Source of the DNA: Roseobacter ponti
GTDB lineage: Bacteria; Pseudomonadota; Alphaproteobacteria; Rhodobacterales; Rhodobacteraceae
DNA length: 64,000 nucleotides
Direction of reading: 5' to 3'
Assembly (NCBI RefSeq): GCF_012932215.1
Contig: NZ_CP048788.1
Coordinates: 2,046,001 to 2,110,000, forward strand
The translations under genes were made by a program, and so were the position numbers. The notes below the pieces were generated by a model. It saw nothing but the letters and a program-made list of their open reading frames with translations. It was not told where the DNA came from and made no database searches. This document shows, piece by piece, positions 44,531 through 53,884 of this stretch; the first letter of the stretch is position 1; each line of letters starts with the position of its first letter.

Positions 44531-45535
44531 ATGACGGTCAGAGTGGGTATCAATGGTTTCGGGCGGATCGGGCGGTGCACGCTGGGTCATATCATCGGCT
44601 CGGGGCGCAACGACATCAGTGTTGTCGCCGTGAATGCCACCGGACCGCTTGAGACCGCAGCACATCTGATGCGTTACGACTCCGTTCACGGGCGCTTTCC
44701 CGGCGAGATCGTCACCGGCGCCAACACGATGGATCTGGGGCGCGGACCGATCCGGATGATGTCGAGCTATGACCTCAATGAACTGGACTGGGAAGGCGTG
44801 GACGTCGTTCTGGAATGCACAGGGCAGTTCAACGACGGGGACGCGGCCAGAACTCACGTTGCGCATGGCGCCCGCCGGGTACTGATCTCAGCACCGGCAA
44901 AGAATGTGGACCGCACCGTGGTCTTCGGTGTGAACCACCGCGACCTGCTCACCTCGGACACAACGATTTCAAACGGATCCTGCACCACCAACTGTCTCGC
45001 CCCGATGGCGATGGTCATGGATGATGCGATCGGCATCGAACGCGGCATTATGACGACCATCCACTCCTATACAGGTGATCAGCCGACGCTGGACCGTCGC
45101 CATGACGATCTCTATCGTGCGCGCGCTGCGGCCATGGCGATCATCCCCACATCGACAGGTGCAGCCAAAGCTCTGGGTGAAGTGCTGCCGCGTCTGGCAG
45201 GCAGGCTTGACGGCACTGCGATGCGGGTGCCCACCCCGAATGTATCGGCCGTGGATCTGACATTCGAAGCGCCACGCGATGTCACGGTCGATGAGGTCAA
45301 TGCAGCCTTTGAGGCCGCTGCGTCCGGGACGATGTCACGGGTCATGTCCTATGACCCCGCGCCCAAGGTTTCGGTGGATTTCAATCACACCGAACAAAGC
45401 TGCATTATCGCGCCTGAGCAGACCAAAGTGGTCGGCGGACGCACTGTCCGGGTGCTGGCCTGGTATGACAACGAATGGGGCTTTTCCGCACGCATGGCGG
45501 ATGTTGCGGCAACGATGGGCCGCCTCGACGACTGA
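44531..45535 (+). CDS. gap: glyceraldehyde-3-phosphate dehydrogenase, GapB-like (Ala at the cofactor position)
   Basis: The 334-residue type I GAPDH has the Rossmann start INGFGRIGR, the catalytic cysteine in ISNGSCTTNCLAPM, the base histidine in TTIHSYTGDQ and NEWGFSARM at the end. The residue at the NAD-selective position is Ala36 (AVNATGPLET) where NAD enzymes have Asp. Bacillus GapB has the same Asn-Ala pair and prefers NADP in the gluconeogenic direction, so a similar preference is inferred. A second gap gene with Asp36 follows at 45802. The catalytic triad and substrate loop (STGAAKALG) are intact. Confidence 0.93.
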   Translation: MTVRVGINGFGRIGRCTLGHIIGSGRNDISVVAVNATGPLETAAHLMRYDSVHGRFPGEIVTGANTMDLGRGPIRMMSSYDLNELDWEGVDVVLECTGQFNDGDAARTHVAHGARRVLISAPAKNVDRTVVFGVNHRDLLTSDTTISNGSCTTNCLAPMAMVMDDAIGIERGIMTTIHSYTGDQPTLDRRHDDLYRARAAAMAIIPTSTGAAKALGEVLPRLAGRLDGTAMRVPTPNVSAVDLTFEAPRDVTVDEVNAAFEAAASGTMSRVMSYDPAPKVSVDFNHTEQSCIIAPEQTKVVGGRTVRVLAWYDNEWGFSARMADVAATMGRLDD

Positions 45536-45801: not shown

Positions 45802-46803
45802 ATGGGCATCAGGATCGGTATTAACGGGTTTGGCCGCATCGGGCGGACGCTGCTGCGCGTTCTGGCTGAACCCGGCACCGATGACATTGAGGTCGTGGCG
45901 ATCAATGATCCCGCACCGGCAGAAGCGCTGGCGCATCTGCTGGCCTTTGATTCCATCCACGGGCGCTTTCCCTGTCCCGTGCGTCTTGACGGTGAGCATA
46001 TTGATTTCGGACGCGGGCCGGTAAGGCTCACGGCGCTGAGCGACCCGGCGGACCTGTCCTGGGATGACGTGGATGTGGCGCTGGAGTGCAGCGGTCATTT
46101 CACCCGAAGGGCAGATGCGGAACGTCACTTCCGGAACGGCTCGGGCCGCGTGCTCCTCTCGGCACCGGCCAAAGGCGACGGTCCCACAGTGGTTTACGGC
46201 GTAAATCACAGCCGCATCAGTAAACAGGACCGGTTGATTTCAAACGGCTCCTGCACAACCAACTGCCTGGCGCCGGTCGCCCATGTCCTGCATGAGGCGA
46301 TCGGGATCCGTCGTGGCATGATGACCACGGTTCATTGCTATACGACCTCACAGGGGGTGCATGACGGCCCGCACGATGATCTTTATCGCGCGCGCGGGGC
46401 GGCACTGTCGATGGTGCCCACCTCGACGGGGGCTGCGGAAACACTCGGGCTCGTGCTGCCGGAGCTTGCCGGGCTGATCACCGGTCAGGCGATCCGGGTG
46501 CCGGTGGCGGATGTTTCCTGTATCGATCTGACGGTCGAGGTGGCGCGGCCTGTGTCGGCGGATGAGGTTAACGATTTGTTCACGGAGGCTGCCGCCGGGT
46601 CGATGCGCGGGATCATCGGTGTGACAGCCGATAAACTGGTCTCGCGTGATCTGCTGCGCGACCCGCACAGCGCGATCGTTGTGACCGATCAGACCCGGGT
46701 TCAGAGTGGCACTCTGGTGCGCATCCTGGCCTGGTATGACAACGAATGGGGCTTTTCGTGCCGGTTGCGCGATATGGTGCGGGTGGTGGCAGCGAGCAGC
46801 TGA
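45802..46803 (+). CDS. gap: glyceraldehyde-3-phosphate dehydrogenase, NAD-type
   Basis: The 333-residue type I GAPDH has INGFGRIGRTLL, the NAD-type Asp36 in AINDPAPAE, the catalytic cysteine in SNGSCTTNCLAPV, His in TTVHCYTTSQG, and NEWGFSCRLRD at the end. Some usually conserved places differ: the strand that normally reads RVPTPNVS is RVPVADVSCID here, and STGAAKAVG is STGAAETLG, so it is more diverged than its neighbour. It remains a probable GAPDH, and erythrose-4-phosphate dehydrogenase is less likely because STG is kept. Confidence 0.9.
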   Translation: MGIRIGINGFGRIGRTLLRVLAEPGTDDIEVVAINDPAPAEALAHLLAFDSIHGRFPCPVRLDGEHIDFGRGPVRLTALSDPADLSWDDVDVALECSGHFTRRADAERHFRNGSGRVLLSAPAKGDGPTVVYGVNHSRISKQDRLISNGSCTTNCLAPVAHVLHEAIGIRRGMMTTVHCYTTSQGVHDGPHDDLYRARGAALSMVPTSTGAAETLGLVLPELAGLITGQAIRVPVADVSCIDLTVEVARPVSADEVNDLFTEAAAGSMRGIIGVTADKLVSRDLLRDPHSAIVVTDQTRVQSGTLVRILAWYDNEWGFSCRLRDMVRVVAASS

Positions 46804-47909: not shown

Positions 47910-48806
47910 TCAAGCCTGGGCTTCCAGACGGGCAACCTCTGCGCGCAGACCCGCGCTCAGGCTTTCCGCAAAACGGGTCAGTCGCGCGTTGCGCTGATCG
48001 TCCGCGTGGCGGATCAGCCAGAAAGACCGCGTCAGGCTCACGATGTCTGTGAGCACCCGGCGCACTCCGGGCGTGGCGGGCAGCGAAAAGTCATGCGCCA
48101 CGCCGATCCCGCCGCCCTGCCGGATCAGATTTACCTGAACGGAGGCCGAATTGGACGCCAGCGGCACCCGGGCCATGCCGATGTCAGCAAGGTAATCCAG
48201 TTCGCGGTCAAAGATCATATCAGGGATGTAGCCGACCAGCCTCAGCCCCTGCAGATCATCCAGCGTCTCCACTGGTCCGTATTCTGCAAGATAGCCCTCC
48301 CCTGCGGCAAGATGCAGCCGGTAATCGGTGATCTTCTGCACCACCAGCCGCCCGGCTCCCGGCGCGCTTACCGCGATGGCCATGTCCGCTTCACGCCGTG
48401 AAAGGTTAAAGACGCGCGGAAGTGCCACGATCTGGATATCGAGCTCAGGGTTATCGTCGGAAATGGCAGCACAGACCTGGGGCAGCAGATAATTGGCACA
48501 TCCGTCCGGCGCACCGATGCGGATCTGTCCGCGCAGCTGTTCGCCCTGCGCCGGCAGGCCTGCGACCGCCACGCGCATGGCCTGTTCTGCAGCTTCGGAG
48601 CGCGCCAGCAGAGCCACACCTGCGTCAGTCAGCGTGTAGCCCTGGGGGGATTTGACAAACAGTGCCGCCTGCAGCGCCGTTTCCAGCCGCGCCATACGCC
48701 GCCCCACGGTCGCGGGATCCAGCCGCAGGCGTTTGCCCGCTCCCGACAGGCTCTCTTCGCGCGCCACGGCCAGAAAAAGCCGCAGATCGTCCCAGTTGGT
48801 CTGCAC
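47910..48806 (-). CDS. LysR family transcriptional regulator
   Basis: The protein has 298 residues from the GTG at 48806 (VQTNWDDLRLFLAVAREESL); GGGGAGG is 4 bases upstream and decides the start over an ATG at 48878. It has the HTH (LSGAGKRLRLDPATVGRRMA) and the substrate-binding domain (RIGAPDGCANYLLPQVCAAI, the RREADMAIAVSAPGAG stretch). It is divergent from the valine-degradation operon (mmsA start 156 bases away), so it likely controls that operon. The ligand is not known. Confidence 0.9.
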   Translation of the reverse strand: MQTNWDDLRLFLAVAREESLSGAGKRLRLDPATVGRRMARLETALQAALFVKSPQGYTLTDAGVALLARSEAAEQAMRVAVAGLPAQGEQLRGQIRIGAPDGCANYLLPQVCAAISDDNPELDIQIVALPRVFNLSRREADMAIAVSAPGAGRLVVQKITDYRLHLAAGEGYLAEYGPVETLDDLQGLRLVGYIPDMIFDRELDYLADIGMARVPLASNSASVQVNLIRQGGGIGVAHDFSLPATPGVRRVLTDIVSLTRSFWLIRHADDQRNARLTRFAESLSAGLRAEVARLEAQA

Positions 48807-48961
48807 AGCACCTCCCCGGGTCATGCAAAAATGCAAGGCTGATTTGCTATCTTTCCTCTTTAAGGCCCGTTTTTGCAAGACTATACCCGTAGCTGACCAC
48901 GAACCAATCCATGTCGTTTGCCGGGCGGGAGCCCTGGCAGCGCAGCATCAGGGAGGCTGTC

Positions 48962-50461
48962 ATGCAGGAACTCACACACTATATCAACGGCGCACACGTT
49001 AAGGGGACGTCCGGGCGGTTTGCCGATGTGATGAACCCCGCCACCGGCGAGGTGCAGGCGAAAGTCCCGCTCGCCTCGACCGAAGAGATGGGCCAGGCGG
49101 TCGACTATGCCACCGCCGCACAACCGGCCTGGGCCGCCACCAACCCGCAGCGTCGCGCGCGCGTTCTGATGAAATTCGTCGATCTGCTGAACCGCGATAT
49201 GGATAAGCTCGCGGAGGCGCTGAGCCGCGAGCATGGCAAAACGCTGCCCGATGCCGCCGGCGACGTGCAGCGCGGTCTTGAGGTGGTGGAATACTGCATC
49301 GGTGCGCCGCATCTGCTGAAAGGGGAATACACCGACAGCGCCGGACGCGGCATTGATATGTATTCGATGCGCCAGGCTCTCGGCGTGACAGCGGGCATTA
49401 CGCCCTTCAACTTCCCTGCGATGATCCCGATGTGGATGTTCGCGCCGGCAATTGCCTGTGGCAACGCCTTTATCCTCAAACCCTCTGAGCGCGACCCTTC
49501 CGTGCCGCTGATGCTGGCCGAACTGATGGAAGAAGCGGGCCTGCCCAAAGGCATTCTGCAGGTGGTGAACGGCGACAAAGAAGCCGTCGACGCGATCCTG
49601 CACCACGATGTGATCCAGTCCGTGGGCTTTGTCGGCTCCACACCGATCGCCGAGTACATCTATGGCACCGGCTGCGCCAACGGCAAACGGGTTCAGTGTT
49701 TCGGCGGTGCGAAAAACCACATGATTATTATGCCCGACGCCGATATGGATCAGGCCGCGGATGCGCTGATCGGTGCGGGATATGGTGCTGCAGGCGAGCG
49801 CTGCATGGCGATCTCGGTTGCCGTGCCGGTAGGCGATGAGACCGCCGACCGCCTGATCGAAAAGCTGGTGCCTCGCATAGAAAAGCTGAAAGTCGGCCCC
49901 TATACCGCCGGAAATGACGTCGACTACGGCCCGGTGGTAACGGCTGCGGCCAAGGCCAATATCGAACGCCTCGTGCAGACCGGTATCGACCAGGGCGCGA
50001 ACCTTGTGGTCGACGGTCGCGATTTCAAACTGCAGGGCTATGAGGATGGCTTCTTTGTGGGCCCGCACCTCTTCGACAACGTGACAAGGGACATGGACAT
50101 CTATAAATACGAGATCTTCGGCCCGGTTCTGTCGACCGTCCGCGCACAGTCCTATGAGGAAGCGCTGGGGCTCGCGATGGACCATGAATACGGCAACGGG
50201 ACTGCGATCTTTACCCGCGACGGCGATGCGGCGCGTGATTTCGCCAACCGGGTGAATGTGGGCATGATCGGTGTCAACGTGCCGATCCCGGTGCCGCTGG
50301 CCTATCACACATTCGGCGGCTGGAAGAAATCGGTCTTTGGCGATCTCAATCAGCACGGGCCGGATGCGTTCAAATTCTACACCCGCACCAAAACCGTAAC
50401 CGCGCGCTGGCCGTCCGGCATCAAAGAAGGCGGCGAATTCTCGATCCCCGTGATGGAATAA
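48962..50461 (+). CDS. mmsA: methylmalonate-semialdehyde dehydrogenase (CoA-acylating)
   Basis: The protein has 499 residues from MQELTHYINGAHVKGTSGRF (GGGAGG upstream). Motifs are ITPFNFPAMIPMWMFAPAIA, the NAD-binding GFVGSTPIAEYIYGTG, and the active-site cysteine in GAAGERCMAISVAVPVG. It turns methylmalonate semialdehyde into propionyl-CoA in valine degradation. The gene directly downstream makes the preceding intermediates. It is followed by a hairpin at 50467-50492 that is weak as a terminator, so cotranscription is still likely. Confidence 0.95.
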   Translation: MQELTHYINGAHVKGTSGRFADVMNPATGEVQAKVPLASTEEMGQAVDYATAAQPAWAATNPQRRARVLMKFVDLLNRDMDKLAEALSREHGKTLPDAAGDVQRGLEVVEYCIGAPHLLKGEYTDSAGRGIDMYSMRQALGVTAGITPFNFPAMIPMWMFAPAIACGNAFILKPSERDPSVPLMLAELMEEAGLPKGILQVVNGDKEAVDAILHHDVIQSVGFVGSTPIAEYIYGTGCANGKRVQCFGGAKNHMIIMPDADMDQAADALIGAGYGAAGERCMAISVAVPVGDETADRLIEKLVPRIEKLKVGPYTAGNDVDYGPVVTAAAKANIERLVQTGIDQGANLVVDGRDFKLQGYEDGFFVGPHLFDNVTRDMDIYKYEIFGPVLSTVRAQSYEEALGLAMDHEYGNGTAIFTRDGDAARDFANRVNVGMIGVNVPIPVPLAYHTFGGWKKSVFGDLNQHGPDAFKFYTRTKTVTARWPSGIKEGGEFSIPVME

Positions 50462-50466
50462 AAATA

Positions 50467-50492
50467 AAGGGTCGCACTTCGATGCGGCCCTT
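50467..50492 (+). terminator. hairpin after mmsA
   Basis: AAGGGTCGCA pairs with TGCGGCCCTT (one T-G pair) around the loop CTTCGA, a UUCG-type tetraloop. The downstream T-run is poor (ttataatat), so it may be only a partial terminator or an RNA-stabilising hairpin. Confidence 0.6.
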
Positions 50493-50529
50493 ATAATATG
50501 GGCGGAGGCAGCAGGGGAATTCCGTCATT

Positions 50530-52455
50530 ATGAGCGATATCAGCATCCGTCAGACCGGGGTCGCCGGGCGCATCACACTCATGCGTCCTGACGCTCTGAA
50601 CGCCCTGGCCTATGACATGTGTCTGGCGATTGAAGCAGCGCTCGACCGCTGGCGCGATGACGACAGTATCGCGCATATCGTGATCGACGCAGAGGGCGAA
50701 CGGGCCTTCTGCGCAGGCGGCGATATCGCGGAACTCTACGCAAAAGGCATCGCGGGCGATTTTGACTATGGCCGGCGCTTCTGGGCCGATGAATACCGGA
50801 TGAATGCGAAAATCTTCAGCTACCCCAAACCGGTCATTTCGTTTCTGCAGGGCTTCACCATGGGGGGCGGTGTCGGCATCGGCTGTCACGGCTCTCACCG
50901 CATCGTCGGGCAAAGCAGCCGGATCGCCATGCCTGAATGCGGCATCGGGCTCATACCGGATGTGGGCGGCACGCTGATGCTGGCGCTGGCACCAGGGCGT
51001 CTGGGCGAATACCTCGGCACAACGGCCACCCGCATGACCGCCGCTGATGCGATCCTCGCCGGGTTCGCGGATCTGATGATTGACGAGGCCGCCTGGCCCG
51101 GCCTGATTGAGGCGCTGGAGACCGGCGGAGATGCGGCGGGCCTTGAGGCGGCAGCCACCGACCCCGGTGCTGCACCGCTGCAGACACATATGGCGCAGAT
51201 CGACCGGCATTTCGGCGGTGAGACCGTGAGGGATATTATGACATCCCTTTCGCATGATGACAGCGACTTCGCCCGCGACACCCTCAGGTCGCTCTCGCGC
51301 ATGAGCCCGCTGTCGATGGCCTGCACCATTGAGGTTATTCACCGCCTGCGAGGGCCTTCGCTGACGCTGGCCAGGGCGCTCGATCTTGAGTACCGCTTTA
51401 CCAGCCGGGCGCTGGAACACGGTGACCTTCTGGAAGGTATACGGGCGGCGATCATCGATAAAGACCGCAAGCCTGTCTGGCAGCATGCGGGCCGTTCTGT
51501 GCCGCCCGCTGAGATCAGTAAAATGCTGATGCCGGTCAGGGACAATCCCCTGCAGCTGGAGGGGACAGTAATGAAAAGGGCAAAAATCGGCTTTATCGGG
51601 CTCGGAAACATGGGCGCACCGATGGCCGCCAATCTCGCGCGGGCCGGGCATGAGGTGACCGGGTTTGACACCGCCGGCACCACCGCAGAGGGCGTCAGCA
51701 CGACGCAGACCGCCGCCGCAGTTGCGACAGACGCCGATGTGGTGATCTGCATGCTGCCCAACGGTGCCATTCTGCGCAATGTCGCGGAAGAGGTTCTGCG
51801 GGCAATGAAGAAAGGCGCTTTGTTACTGGATTGTTCGACCGTTGATGTGGAGGCCGCGCGCGCGGTCGCGGCTGCTGCGGAAGACGCCGGTCTCCTGTTT
51901 GCCGATGCCCCGGTGTCGGGCGGGATCGGCGGCGCTTCGGCGGGTACTCTGACCTTTATGGCCGGCGGCACCGAGGCCGCGTTTCAGGCTGCCAGCCCGC
52001 TTTTCGACGTGATGGGCCAGAAGGCGGTGCATTGTGGTGAGGCCGGTGCGGGCCAGGCGGCAAAAATCTGCAATAATATGATTCTCGGTGCGACGATGAT
52101 CGCAACCTGCGAAGCTTTCGCACTTGCGGACAAACTCGGACTGGACCGCGCCAGGATGTTTGACGTTGTCAGCACCTCATCAGGTTACAGCTGGAGCATG
52201 AACGCCTATTGTCCGGCACCCGGCATCGGGCCGAAAAGCCCGGCTGACAACGGCTATACGCCCGGGTTTGCGTCAGAACTGATGGTCAAGGATCTGGGGC
52301 TTTCTCAGCAGGCCGCCGAGGCCGTTGATGCCGACACGCCAATGGGCGCTCTGGCGCTGGCACTTTATCGTCAGTTCGTCGAAAAAGAAGACGGGAAGGG
52401 CAAAGATTTCTCTGCCATGCTGCCGCGATTTGAGGCGCGTGGCCGGTCCTCCTGA
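50530..52455 (+). CDS. mmsB: fusion of 3-hydroxyisobutyryl-CoA hydrolase and 3-hydroxyisobutyrate dehydrogenase
   Basis: One open frame of 641 codons holds two complete enzymes. Residues 1 to about 345 are an enoyl-CoA hydratase-type 3-hydroxyisobutyryl-CoA hydrolase: RAFCAGGDIAELY, LQGFTMGGGVGIGCHGSHR, and the catalytic glutamate region AMPECGIGLIPDVGG. Residues about 349-641 are MmsB: KIGFIGLGNMGAPMAANLAR, DAPVSGGIGGASAGTLTFMA, and the catalytic lysine in GQAAKICNNMILGATM. They catalyse consecutive steps of valine breakdown ahead of mmsA. In relatives these are separate genes. A GGAGGGG and ATG for the second part sit inside the frame (51558-51573), so separate translation of MmsB is also possible. 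A sequencing error at the joint cannot be ruled out. Confidence 0.85.
   Translation: MSDISIRQTGVAGRITLMRPDALNALAYDMCLAIEAALDRWRDDDSIAHIVIDAEGERAFCAGGDIAELYAKGIAGDFDYGRRFWADEYRMNAKIFSYPKPVISFLQGFTMGGGVGIGCHGSHRIVGQSSRIAMPECGIGLIPDVGGTLMLALAPGRLGEYLGTTATRMTAADAILAGFADLMIDEAAWPGLIEALETGGDAAGLEAAATDPGAAPLQTHMAQIDRHFGGETVRDIMTSLSHDDSDFARDTLRSLSRMSPLSMACTIEVIHRLRGPSLTLARALDLEYRFTSRALEHGDLLEGIRAAIIDKDRKPVWQHAGRSVPPAEISKMLMPVRDNPLQLEGTVMKRAKIGFIGLGNMGAPMAANLARAGHEVTGFDTAGTTAEGVSTTQTAAAVATDADVVICMLPNGAILRNVAEEVLRAMKKGALLLDCSTVDVEAARAVAAAAEDAGLLFADAPVSGGIGGASAGTLTFMAGGTEAAFQAASPLFDVMGQKAVHCGEAGAGQAAKICNNMILGATMIATCEAFALADKLGLDRARMFDVVSTSSGYSWSMNAYCPAPGIGPKSPADNGYTPGFASELMVKDLGLSQQAAEAVDADTPMGALALALYRQFVEKEDGKGKDFSAMLPRFEARGRSS
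51558..51573 (+). promoter_or_regulatory. internal ribosome-binding site and ATG of the dehydrogenase part
   Basis: GGAGGGG (51558-51564), a 6-base spacer and ATG (51571) lie in frame inside the fused gene. They begin the MKRAKIGFIGLG sequence that matches the natural start of a separate MmsB. This supports a second product of 294 residues alongside, or instead of, the fused protein. Confidence 0.7.
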
Positions 52456-52525
52456 GGTCGCATCTGAACGGTCTGCGCGCCGCCGCGCGGAGTATTCTGA
52501 GGAAAGTCGCATCAAGGAGCCCTGC

Positions 52526-53884
52526 ATGCCGCGTCCTTTTCATGAATTCGCCGCCGGTCTGAGCTATGACGATCTGCCCGCCGATGTGCTGCGCGTGCTG
52601 CGGCGCTCATTTCTGGACACGATGGGGGTGGCCGCGGTGGCCTCGCGGTCAGACATGGCAGGCATTGCGCGGACCGCGGCTCTGGCCCTCTTCGGTCCGG
52701 GTGCGGCAGGCGGGTCGCGCATTCTGATGCATGGCGACCGGGTGAGCCCTGCGGGTGCTGCCATGGCCGGCGCAATGACAATCGACAGTGTTGACGCCCA
52801 CGACGGAACATCCCCGTGCAAGGGGCACGCGGGCTCTGCCGTCTTTCCCGCGCTGCTCGCCGTTGCGGACATCAGGAACGACCTGCAGGGATCTGATTTC
52901 GCTGTCCTACTGGCCATTGCCTATGAGGTCAGCTACCGCGCCGGCCTTGCGCAGCATGCCACCTGCGCCGACTACCACACGTCGGGTGCATGGACGGCCA
53001 CCGGTGTCGCTACGGCCTGCGCGCGCGCTCTCGGGGGCACGGCCGGTCAGATCAGGCATGCAGCAGGTATCGGCGAGTATCATGGCCCCCGCAGCCAGAT
53101 GATGCGCTGCATTGACCACCCAACAATGTTGCGTGATGGCGTGGGCTGGGGGGCACCATCCGGCGTTACGGCAGCCTGGCTGGCACTTGCCGGTTTCACC
53201 GGTGCCCCGGCGCTGACCTGCGAGGAAGCGCCGGCCTTCTGGGACGATCTCGGGTCCGCCTGGCGCCTCGTCGAGGACACGCATTACAAACCCTACCCCT
53301 GTTGTCGCTGGGCGCATCCGGCCATTGACGCGGCCGCCGACATCATGCGCGGGAACGGGCTGCACCACAGTGATGTGGCCTCGGTGGAAATCCGCACCTT
53401 TCACAACGCCACCCGGCTTGCCGGGCACACCCCCGCCAGCCCGGATGAATTTGCTTATTCAATCGCCTTTCCGGTGGCCACAATGATTGTGCGCGGTCAG
53501 GTCGGTGTCGCTGAACTGGCGGCTGAAACGCTGGAAGATCCGGATATTCTGCGCATCAGCCGCGCCACGGAACTGGTTGATGATGAACACTTTACGGCGA
53601 TCAGTATCGGCAAACGCTGGGCAGGTGTTTCGATCCGCACCAAGGACGGTCGGGAGCTGAGCACAGACGCACGTACGCCGCGCGGCGATACGGATATTCC
53701 CCTGAGCGATGACGAGATTTCAGACAAGTTTCATCTTTTTGCCGATCCGGTCATGGGACGGGCGCGTGCAGATGAGCTTGAGGCGCTGTGTGGCAGATTT
53801 GATCAGCTCAACGCGTCGGATTTCTCACGGCTCAGAGATCTGTGTCTGACAGGTGCTGATGCGCCGGTTTCCGCCGTTTCGTAA
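52526..53884 (+). CDS. MmgE/PrpD family protein
   Basis: The protein has 452 residues from MPRPFHEFAAGLSYDDLPAD (AAGGAG 6 bases upstream). Visible are FLDTMGVAAVASRSDMAGIA, SVDAHDGTSPCKGHAGSAVF and the YKPYPCCRWAHPAIDAAADI stretch. PrpD is 2-methylcitrate dehydratase of propionate catabolism, and relatives of this fold act on other acids. As it follows the valine genes that yield propionyl-CoA, a downstream role is plausible, but no prpB or prpC lies in the window. Confidence 0.88.
   Translation: MPRPFHEFAAGLSYDDLPADVLRVLRRSFLDTMGVAAVASRSDMAGIARTAALALFGPGAAGGSRILMHGDRVSPAGAAMAGAMTIDSVDAHDGTSPCKGHAGSAVFPALLAVADIRNDLQGSDFAVLLAIAYEVSYRAGLAQHATCADYHTSGAWTATGVATACARALGGTAGQIRHAAGIGEYHGPRSQMMRCIDHPTMLRDGVGWGAPSGVTAAWLALAGFTGAPALTCEEAPAFWDDLGSAWRLVEDTHYKPYPCCRWAHPAIDAAADIMRGNGLHHSDVASVEIRTFHNATRLAGHTPASPDEFAYSIAFPVATMIVRGQVGVAELAAETLEDPDILRISRATELVDDEHFTAISIGKRWAGVSIRTKDGRELSTDARTPRGDTDIPLSDDEISDKFHLFADPVMGRARADELEALCGRFDQLNASDFSRLRDLCLTGADAPVSAVS

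Follow-up and report, generated by a model that had tools for sequence, protein, structure and literature searches.

An open reading frame in Roseobacter ponti joins two enzymes of valine breakdown, and we propose that it is an old fused gene which probably uses two translation starts, yielding a 67-kDa bifunctional protein and a free 30-kDa dehydrogenase. The gene lies on the forward strand at positions 50530 to 52455 of the window, the whole 64,000-nucleotide stretch of DNA that we analysed. Ribosomes starting at 50530 would read both enzymes and make the bifunctional protein (computed mass, 67.2 kDa), because there is no stop between the domains. Other ribosomes would bind a Shine-Dalgarno sequence buried in the linker and start at the ATG at 51571; their product would be the 3-hydroxyisobutyrate dehydrogenase by itself, at about 30 kDa (computed mass, 29.8 kDa).

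The preliminary description of this DNA had read positions 50530 to 52455 as a 3-hydroxyisobutyryl-CoA hydrolase joined to a 3-hydroxyisobutyrate dehydrogenase. That reading is borne out: the frame stays open for 641 codons, followed by a stop, and curated models for both enzymes score above their cut-offs. NF004127, the model for 3-hydroxyisobutyryl-CoA hydrolase, gives 366.4 bits against a cut-off of 274 and is covered from position 10 to 354 of its 356, while the HIBADH equivalog TIGR01692 gives 362.3 bits within the fusion and 365.2 for the dehydrogenase alone (cut-off, 291.6). The Pfam matches on the fused protein are ECH_2 (PF16113) at residues 13 to 331, NAD_binding_2 at 352 to 503 and NAD_binding_11 at 506 to 631. 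From these profiles and the alignment, the hydrolase domain takes up approximately residues 1 to 333 (50530 to 51528, forward strand), and the dehydrogenase, 294 amino acids if made on its own, is encoded at 51571 to 52452 on the same strand. The hydrolase and the dehydrogenase catalyze consecutive steps in valine breakdown.

Both domains look intact. Across an alignment of 59 fused proteins, hydrolase residues E136 and D144 are invariant; these are the acidic residues of the MPE...PDVGG motif, which we take to be catalytic in 3-hydroxyisobutyryl-CoA hydrolase. Also invariant in the 59 are G357 to G362 of the dehydrogenase GLGNMG motif, presumably the nucleotide-binding motif, and K512, N515 and N516 (fusion numbering) of GAGQAAKICNN, which we assume to be a functional motif of the dehydrogenase part. 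By sequence, the best solved relatives are 4j2u for the hydrolase part and 5y8g for the dehydrogenase part. An AlphaFold monomer model of the fusion (mean pLDDT, 85.5; pTM, 0.67) has two folded domains connected by a short coil linker at about residues 334 to 351 (51529 to 51582, forward strand); pLDDT falls below 50 at residues 345 to 348 within the linker and at residues 112 to 115 and 549 to 579. Since no other place in its own genome passes the NF004127 or the TIGR01692 cut-off, the fused gene is probably the sole source of both enzymes there. The broader ECH_2 model, with its low cut-off, matches 15 times in that genome, and only the match in the fused gene spans the profile (2 to 333 of 335).

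The joint reads CAG CTG GAG GGG ACA GTA ATG. It holds the GGAGGGG-N6-ATG arrangement that the preliminary description had pointed out, at 51558 to 51573: a Shine-Dalgarno sequence, GGAGGGG, at 51558 to 51564 is read as codons in the fused frame, and the start codon of the dehydrogenase, ATG, follows at 51571 to 51573, both on the forward strand. The dehydrogenase had been placed from about residue 349; the internal ATG is residue 348. We set the internal start at the first ATG, GTG or TTG met on going upstream from an anchor residue, and in the 60 fused genes that we compiled it falls 1 or 4 codons before that anchor. The start codon is kept across them, as ATG in 58, GTG in one and TTG in one. 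A Shine-Dalgarno match of at least 4 nt precedes the internal start in 59 of the 60, compared to 206 of 1378 other in-frame ATGs in the same open reading frames, a control that includes one mis-set start (L067, taken as GGC). The L067 joint reads AAGGA-N6-ATG. Matches of at least 5 nt were found in 50 of the 60 fused genes and in 92 of 121 separate genes; by this measure, the buried Shine-Dalgarno sequence looks comparable in strength to an ordinary one. The persistence of both elements across fused genes supports the earlier suggestion of a retained internal start that would fit a free dehydrogenase.

Two fused genes differ at the joint. In an uncultured Marivita sp. (L086), no Shine-Dalgarno match precedes the internal ATG, the sole such case among the 60, and this gene is a candidate for one that makes only the fusion. 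In L043 (genome G192) the linker is longer, with 90 nt between the anchor residues versus 51 to 54 in the genus, and AAGGA-N7-ATG is kept; L043 is sister to the genus clade with a support of 89 in the tree of 178 pairs described below. In the window, the internal signal lies within a modest predicted RNA fold (z-score, -1.50).

How widespread is the fusion? Comparing the joint with that of close relatives had been proposed in the preliminary description, and in the genus it is open in every case: all 19 genomes, the window's included, carry one open frame across both domains, at 72 to 100% identity. Among 295 family genomes from 294 genera, at least 33 are open across the joint (31 full-length rows and 2 partial); G120, G199 and G180, three genomes of the family in which frames are long or matches partial, all have separate genes. 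Culturable relatives with a fused gene include Sulfitobacter brevis DSM 11443 (L067) and Pelagimonas phthalicica DSM 26923 (L087). A sample of 385 genomes drawn from the class gave 55 matches at E 1e-90 or better, a cut-off at which a fused gene with a weak match would escape detection, and two of these are fused: the window's genome and G073, both Rhodobacteraceae. Many of the remaining matches in the class sample have both genes in one frame with at least one stop between. On plasmids, 2269 of 72,556 records matched, and among the matches listed (15) all are in two pieces, the 4 annotated ones being separate genes. The two enzymes had been described as separate genes in related bacteria; separate genes are indeed the rule, but fusion is common in Rhodobacteraceae.

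We assembled 182 distinct gene pairs, leaving out ten duplicates and three loci in which one domain was found (L143, L144 and L200). A script sorted them into 60 fused genes, 121 separate pairs (87 sharing a frame and 34 in different frames) and 1 pair called far apart; the 60 of 182 is no frequency, because the loci were chosen largely as best matches to the fused query. The pair called far apart (L163, in G137) has both domains in one open reading frame with the ATG and a Shine-Dalgarno sequence present, and is thus fused; its hydrolase match is broken in two, and it stands outside the 60-gene counts.

The loss of the stop had been thought recent. This is contradicted by the fused state of all the genus genomes and of at least 33 in the family, and also by synonymous turnover: of 293 invariant amino-acid columns in the genus (Met and Trp excluded), only 3 use a single codon throughout the 19 genomes. 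Judged by these comparisons, the fusion is old, not recent. The same distribution disposes of the idea that a stop is hidden by a mistake in sequencing or assembly. Single-base mistakes are possible in any single assembly, but agreement among all 19 genus genomes, together with the open family genomes, refutes this reading, to which we give practically no credence.

The fused state has also changed repeatedly. A tree of 178 pairs, with the linker and three short loci (L108, L111 and L162) left out, requires at least 16 changes between fused and separate, 11 of them forced by well-supported branches; this was a quick search in which 50 of 175 inner branches have support below 80 and the named outgroup is split into more than one clade. 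Shuffling the state labels on the same tree gave approximately 50 changes on average. With the tree rooted as separate, 21 changes are needed if only gains are allowed, and a single gain would require 23 losses. All 19 genes of the genus fall in a single fused clade (SH-aLRT, 99). A second clade, which we picked after inspecting the tree and analysed through its fused members only, contains 20 fused genes, and two separate genes (L105 and L179) lie inside it. The nesting of these two separate genes suggests that the stop can return. On the evidence of this tree, stop loss is a repeated event within the family and has probably been undone at times.

The separate relatives point to a route by which fusion could arise. 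In the 87 same-frame pairs the stop most commonly lies 3 nt before the ATG (31 pairs), and it lies 0 or 3 nt before in 34. The spacing in 28 of the 34 other-frame pairs ranges between a 4-nt overlap and a stop 5 nt ahead of the start, with an ATGA overlap (-4 nt) in 17, and in the remaining separate pairs the stop-to-start distance reaches up to 63 nt. In Ruegeria L073 the junction reads GAG GAG TAA GGC ATG, placing the Shine-Dalgarno sequence inside the final hydrolase codons. Such close spacing supports the earlier proposal of stop loss between adjacent genes. The ancestor would have been a closely spaced pair with the dehydrogenase Shine-Dalgarno sequence already inside the last codons of the hydrolase; a substitution that removed the stop, or an indel that shifted the frame, would then have joined the proteins with the start intact.

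Which codon was the stop? The preliminary description had favored the GAG of the joint, a choice that is probably wrong. This GAG is part of the Shine-Dalgarno sequence, and a stop at its position (9 nt before the ATG) is found in 2 of the 87 same-frame pairs, as against the 31 with a stop at the position occupied in the window by ACA. ACA is the likelier candidate for the former stop, with the caveats that several near separate relatives (L126, L131, L186 and L187) overlap in another frame (-4 nt) and that the genus internal start lies three codons further upstream than most others.

The sequences show the internal start to be conserved beyond the needs of the protein. In the genus, residue 348 is encoded by ATG in 18 genomes and GTG in 1, and the annotated start of the whole open reading frame shows a like pattern, with ATG in 17, TTG in 1 and GTG in 1. 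Conservation of Met348 is by itself unremarkable, because 17 of 29 Met columns in the genus are wholly Met; what makes it distinct is its variable neighbors, with at least 12 changes at the preceding residue and at least 11 at the following one. Met columns 18, 183, 221, 237 and 258 change to unrelated residues. Codon choice upstream of the start is skewed as well: within the five codons before it, Glu is encoded by 74 GAG to 7 GAA, compared to 764 to 849 elsewhere in the same open reading frames (the mis-set L067 start is included in this count).

We then held the amino acids fixed and redrew codons from each gene in 500 shuffles. Shuffled sequences had a Shine-Dalgarno match of at least 4 nt in a mean of 37.4 of the 60 fused genes (59 observed) and in a mean of 12.8 of the 19 genus genes (19 observed), and in neither set was a shuffle as high as the observed count (0 of 500). 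At thresholds of 4 or 5 nt, 0 of 500 shuffles reached the observed value for any of three sets, namely all fused genes, the genus and the second clade; at 6 nt or more, the numbers were 0 of 500, 15 of 500 and 3 of 500, respectively.

Substitutions tell a similar story. Within the genus, bases -13 to -9 show 0, 0, 1, 3 and 1 changes and the ATG shows 1, 0 and 0, against 4 to 9 changes per site at -8 to -1 and +3 to +11 and a mean of 5.93 at third codon positions. Sites -29, -20, -14, +12 and +16 are also low in changes. The dip in the genus speaks for the RNA only partly, because the protein is conserved there too, with 1 amino-acid change at each of codons -5 and -4. The 20 fused genes of the second clade have 0 changes at the ATG and 1, 1, 1 and 3 at -10 to -7, and at codon -4 the amino acid changed 11 times with a third base of G in 19 of 20. 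From the scarcity of changes at the Shine-Dalgarno sequence and ATG, the shuffles and the third base of codon -4, selection appears to guard the internal start, acting at least partly on the RNA signal, with the caveat that the rows are related, the counts are not independent and the signal is inherited from the separate state, points to which the shuffles and the genus clade's age are a partial answer. We infer that the internal start is functional, that both products are made and that the free dehydrogenase is what selection protects.

Could the gene instead be a plain bifunctional fusion? Only the 67-kDa protein would then be made, retained in the interest of co-regulation or channelling, with the buried Shine-Dalgarno sequence and ATG as relics. 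Such a gene fits the missing stop, the intactness of both domains and their invariant motif residues, the two-domain AlphaFold model with its short linker and the loss of the Shine-Dalgarno sequence in L086. However, relics should decay where synonymous turnover is as high as it is in the genus; the codon of Met348, set among variable linker residues, is replaced only by another start codon, and the Shine-Dalgarno sequence is kept beyond the need of the amino acids. We consider a plain fusion improbable. Still less credible, to our minds, is that a promoter within the hydrolase part drives its own transcript for the free dehydrogenase. A scan of 50400 to 52550 for sigma-70-like sites found none on the forward strand and one on the reverse (shuffle mean, 0.5), and a transcript of this kind would still require the internal ribosome site.

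A more serious contender is a special case of the two-product reading, in which what matters is the free dehydrogenase, and a lengthened hydrolase is tolerated without benefit, the stop having been lost neutrally. The frequent changes of state on the tree and the separate L105 and L179 inside a fused clade are in keeping with it. So is the genus linker, where 0 regained stops, versus 1.8 to 2.2 expected, is compatible with neutrality (P(0), 0.12 to 0.16); in the second clade, 0.6 to 2.5 stop-creating changes are expected, depending on the span and the mutation model, and that clade has two separate genes nested within it. Against neutrality, none of the 19 genus genomes has given up the fusion in a clade whose tree length is 3.59, and translation alone yields no free hydrolase from a fused gene. 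Because this gene is also the only NF004127 place in its own genome, the fused form must itself work. Neutral loss strikes us as plausible, though we do not favor it.

Within the two-product reading, further possibilities can be drawn. Dehydrogenases of the HIBADH family are generally oligomers. Long and short forms may assemble together, and 3-hydroxyisobutyrate may be channelled. More speculatively, the fusion may be recurrent and reversible, with the stop expendable and the second start not; the Shine-Dalgarno sequence would set the ratio of bifunctional to free enzyme, and mixed oligomers of the dehydrogenase domain would juxtapose the CoA hydrolase with the enzyme that uses its product. 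We regard this elaboration as doubtful.

Upstream of the fused gene on the forward strand, at 48911 to 50461, lies an mmsA-like gene for a CoA-acylating methylmalonate-semialdehyde dehydrogenase (TIGR01722, 649.4 bits; cut-off, 448.5). A 10-pair RNA hairpin (50467 to 50492, forward strand; fold z-score, -4.36) separates it from the fused gene, and a terminator scan flagged the hairpin on the reverse strand only (50486 to 50473); the predicted structure might terminate or dampen transcription on the way from mmsA to the fused gene. Divergent from mmsA, at 47910 to 48878 on the reverse strand, is a gene that by eye resembles a LysR regulator. In Pseudomonas denitrificans, the LysR-type MmsR activates mmsA, according to the accessible part of one report (PMC6441110). 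Downstream, an open reading frame at 52325 to 53884 on the forward strand, with a likely start near 52525, looks by eye like a member of the MmgE/PrpD family. The accessible text on Ruegeria pomeroyi describes an acyl-CoA dehydrogenase gene sharing an operon with the two valine genes (PMC3305630); by eye, we saw no acyl-CoA dehydrogenase gene beside the fused gene in the window. Further upstream, two adjacent forward-strand open reading frames of 334 and 333 amino acids (44531 to 45535 and 45802 to 46803) look by eye like tandem glyceraldehyde-3-phosphate dehydrogenase paralogues.

Internal translation in Cas8b/Cas11b is reportedly the subject of work by McBride et al. in 2020. The Haloferax small subunit Cas11b is produced by internal in-frame translation within cas8b, as demonstrated experimentally in the part of the article available (PMC11899642). 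There, one open frame has an internal Met start and its C-terminal part is also a free protein, as we propose for the gene in the window. However, Cas8b and Cas11b are parts of one complex and the case is experimental, whereas ours concerns two catabolic enzymes and is read from sequence; these enzymes are separate genes in most relatives and were joined by repeated stop loss. Salmonella, in the available portion of another study, makes N-terminal proteoform pairs from alternative in-frame starts (PMC11005335). These pairs likewise yield two proteins per open reading frame through the choice of in-frame start, but the downstream product in the window would be a whole separate enzyme for a neighboring pathway step.

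Translationally coupled gene pairs are most efficient at spacings of -4 to +3 nt, as stated in the accessible part of a third paper (PMC12548453), and the separate relatives are often so spaced: 31 of the 87 same-frame pairs are at +3 nt, and 17 of the 34 others are at -4 nt. Fused genes differ in having no termination event at the joint, and hence re-initiation cannot drive the second start in them. In R. pomeroyi, the hydrolase and dehydrogenase are separate genes within SPO_2211-2213, as far as the accessible text of PMC3305630 goes, whereas in the window they are fused. Among the matches listed in our search of the open literature, with subscription journals mostly outside its scope, no title or abstract opening dealt with this fusion, and the accessible parts of PMC6308992 and PMC3711429 contain nothing on it. 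Internal in-frame starts are thus already known; what appears new is that the stop between two metabolic genes has been lost time and again while the start of the second stays guarded.

We conclude that the two-product reading, if correct, has consequences beyond this gene. It offers a replicated case of gene fusion in which an intermediate state is preserved, the downstream gene probably still being translated alone, and it suggests a path by which operon genes may fuse while the dose of the second product stays controlled. Annotation that assigns one protein to each open reading frame may overlook a free enzyme here. If true, the repeated loss and regain of the stop in one family would amount to a natural experiment on the benefit of fusion. 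Fused and unfused relatives make it possible to test directly whether joining two consecutive enzymes brings a benefit or is simply tolerated.
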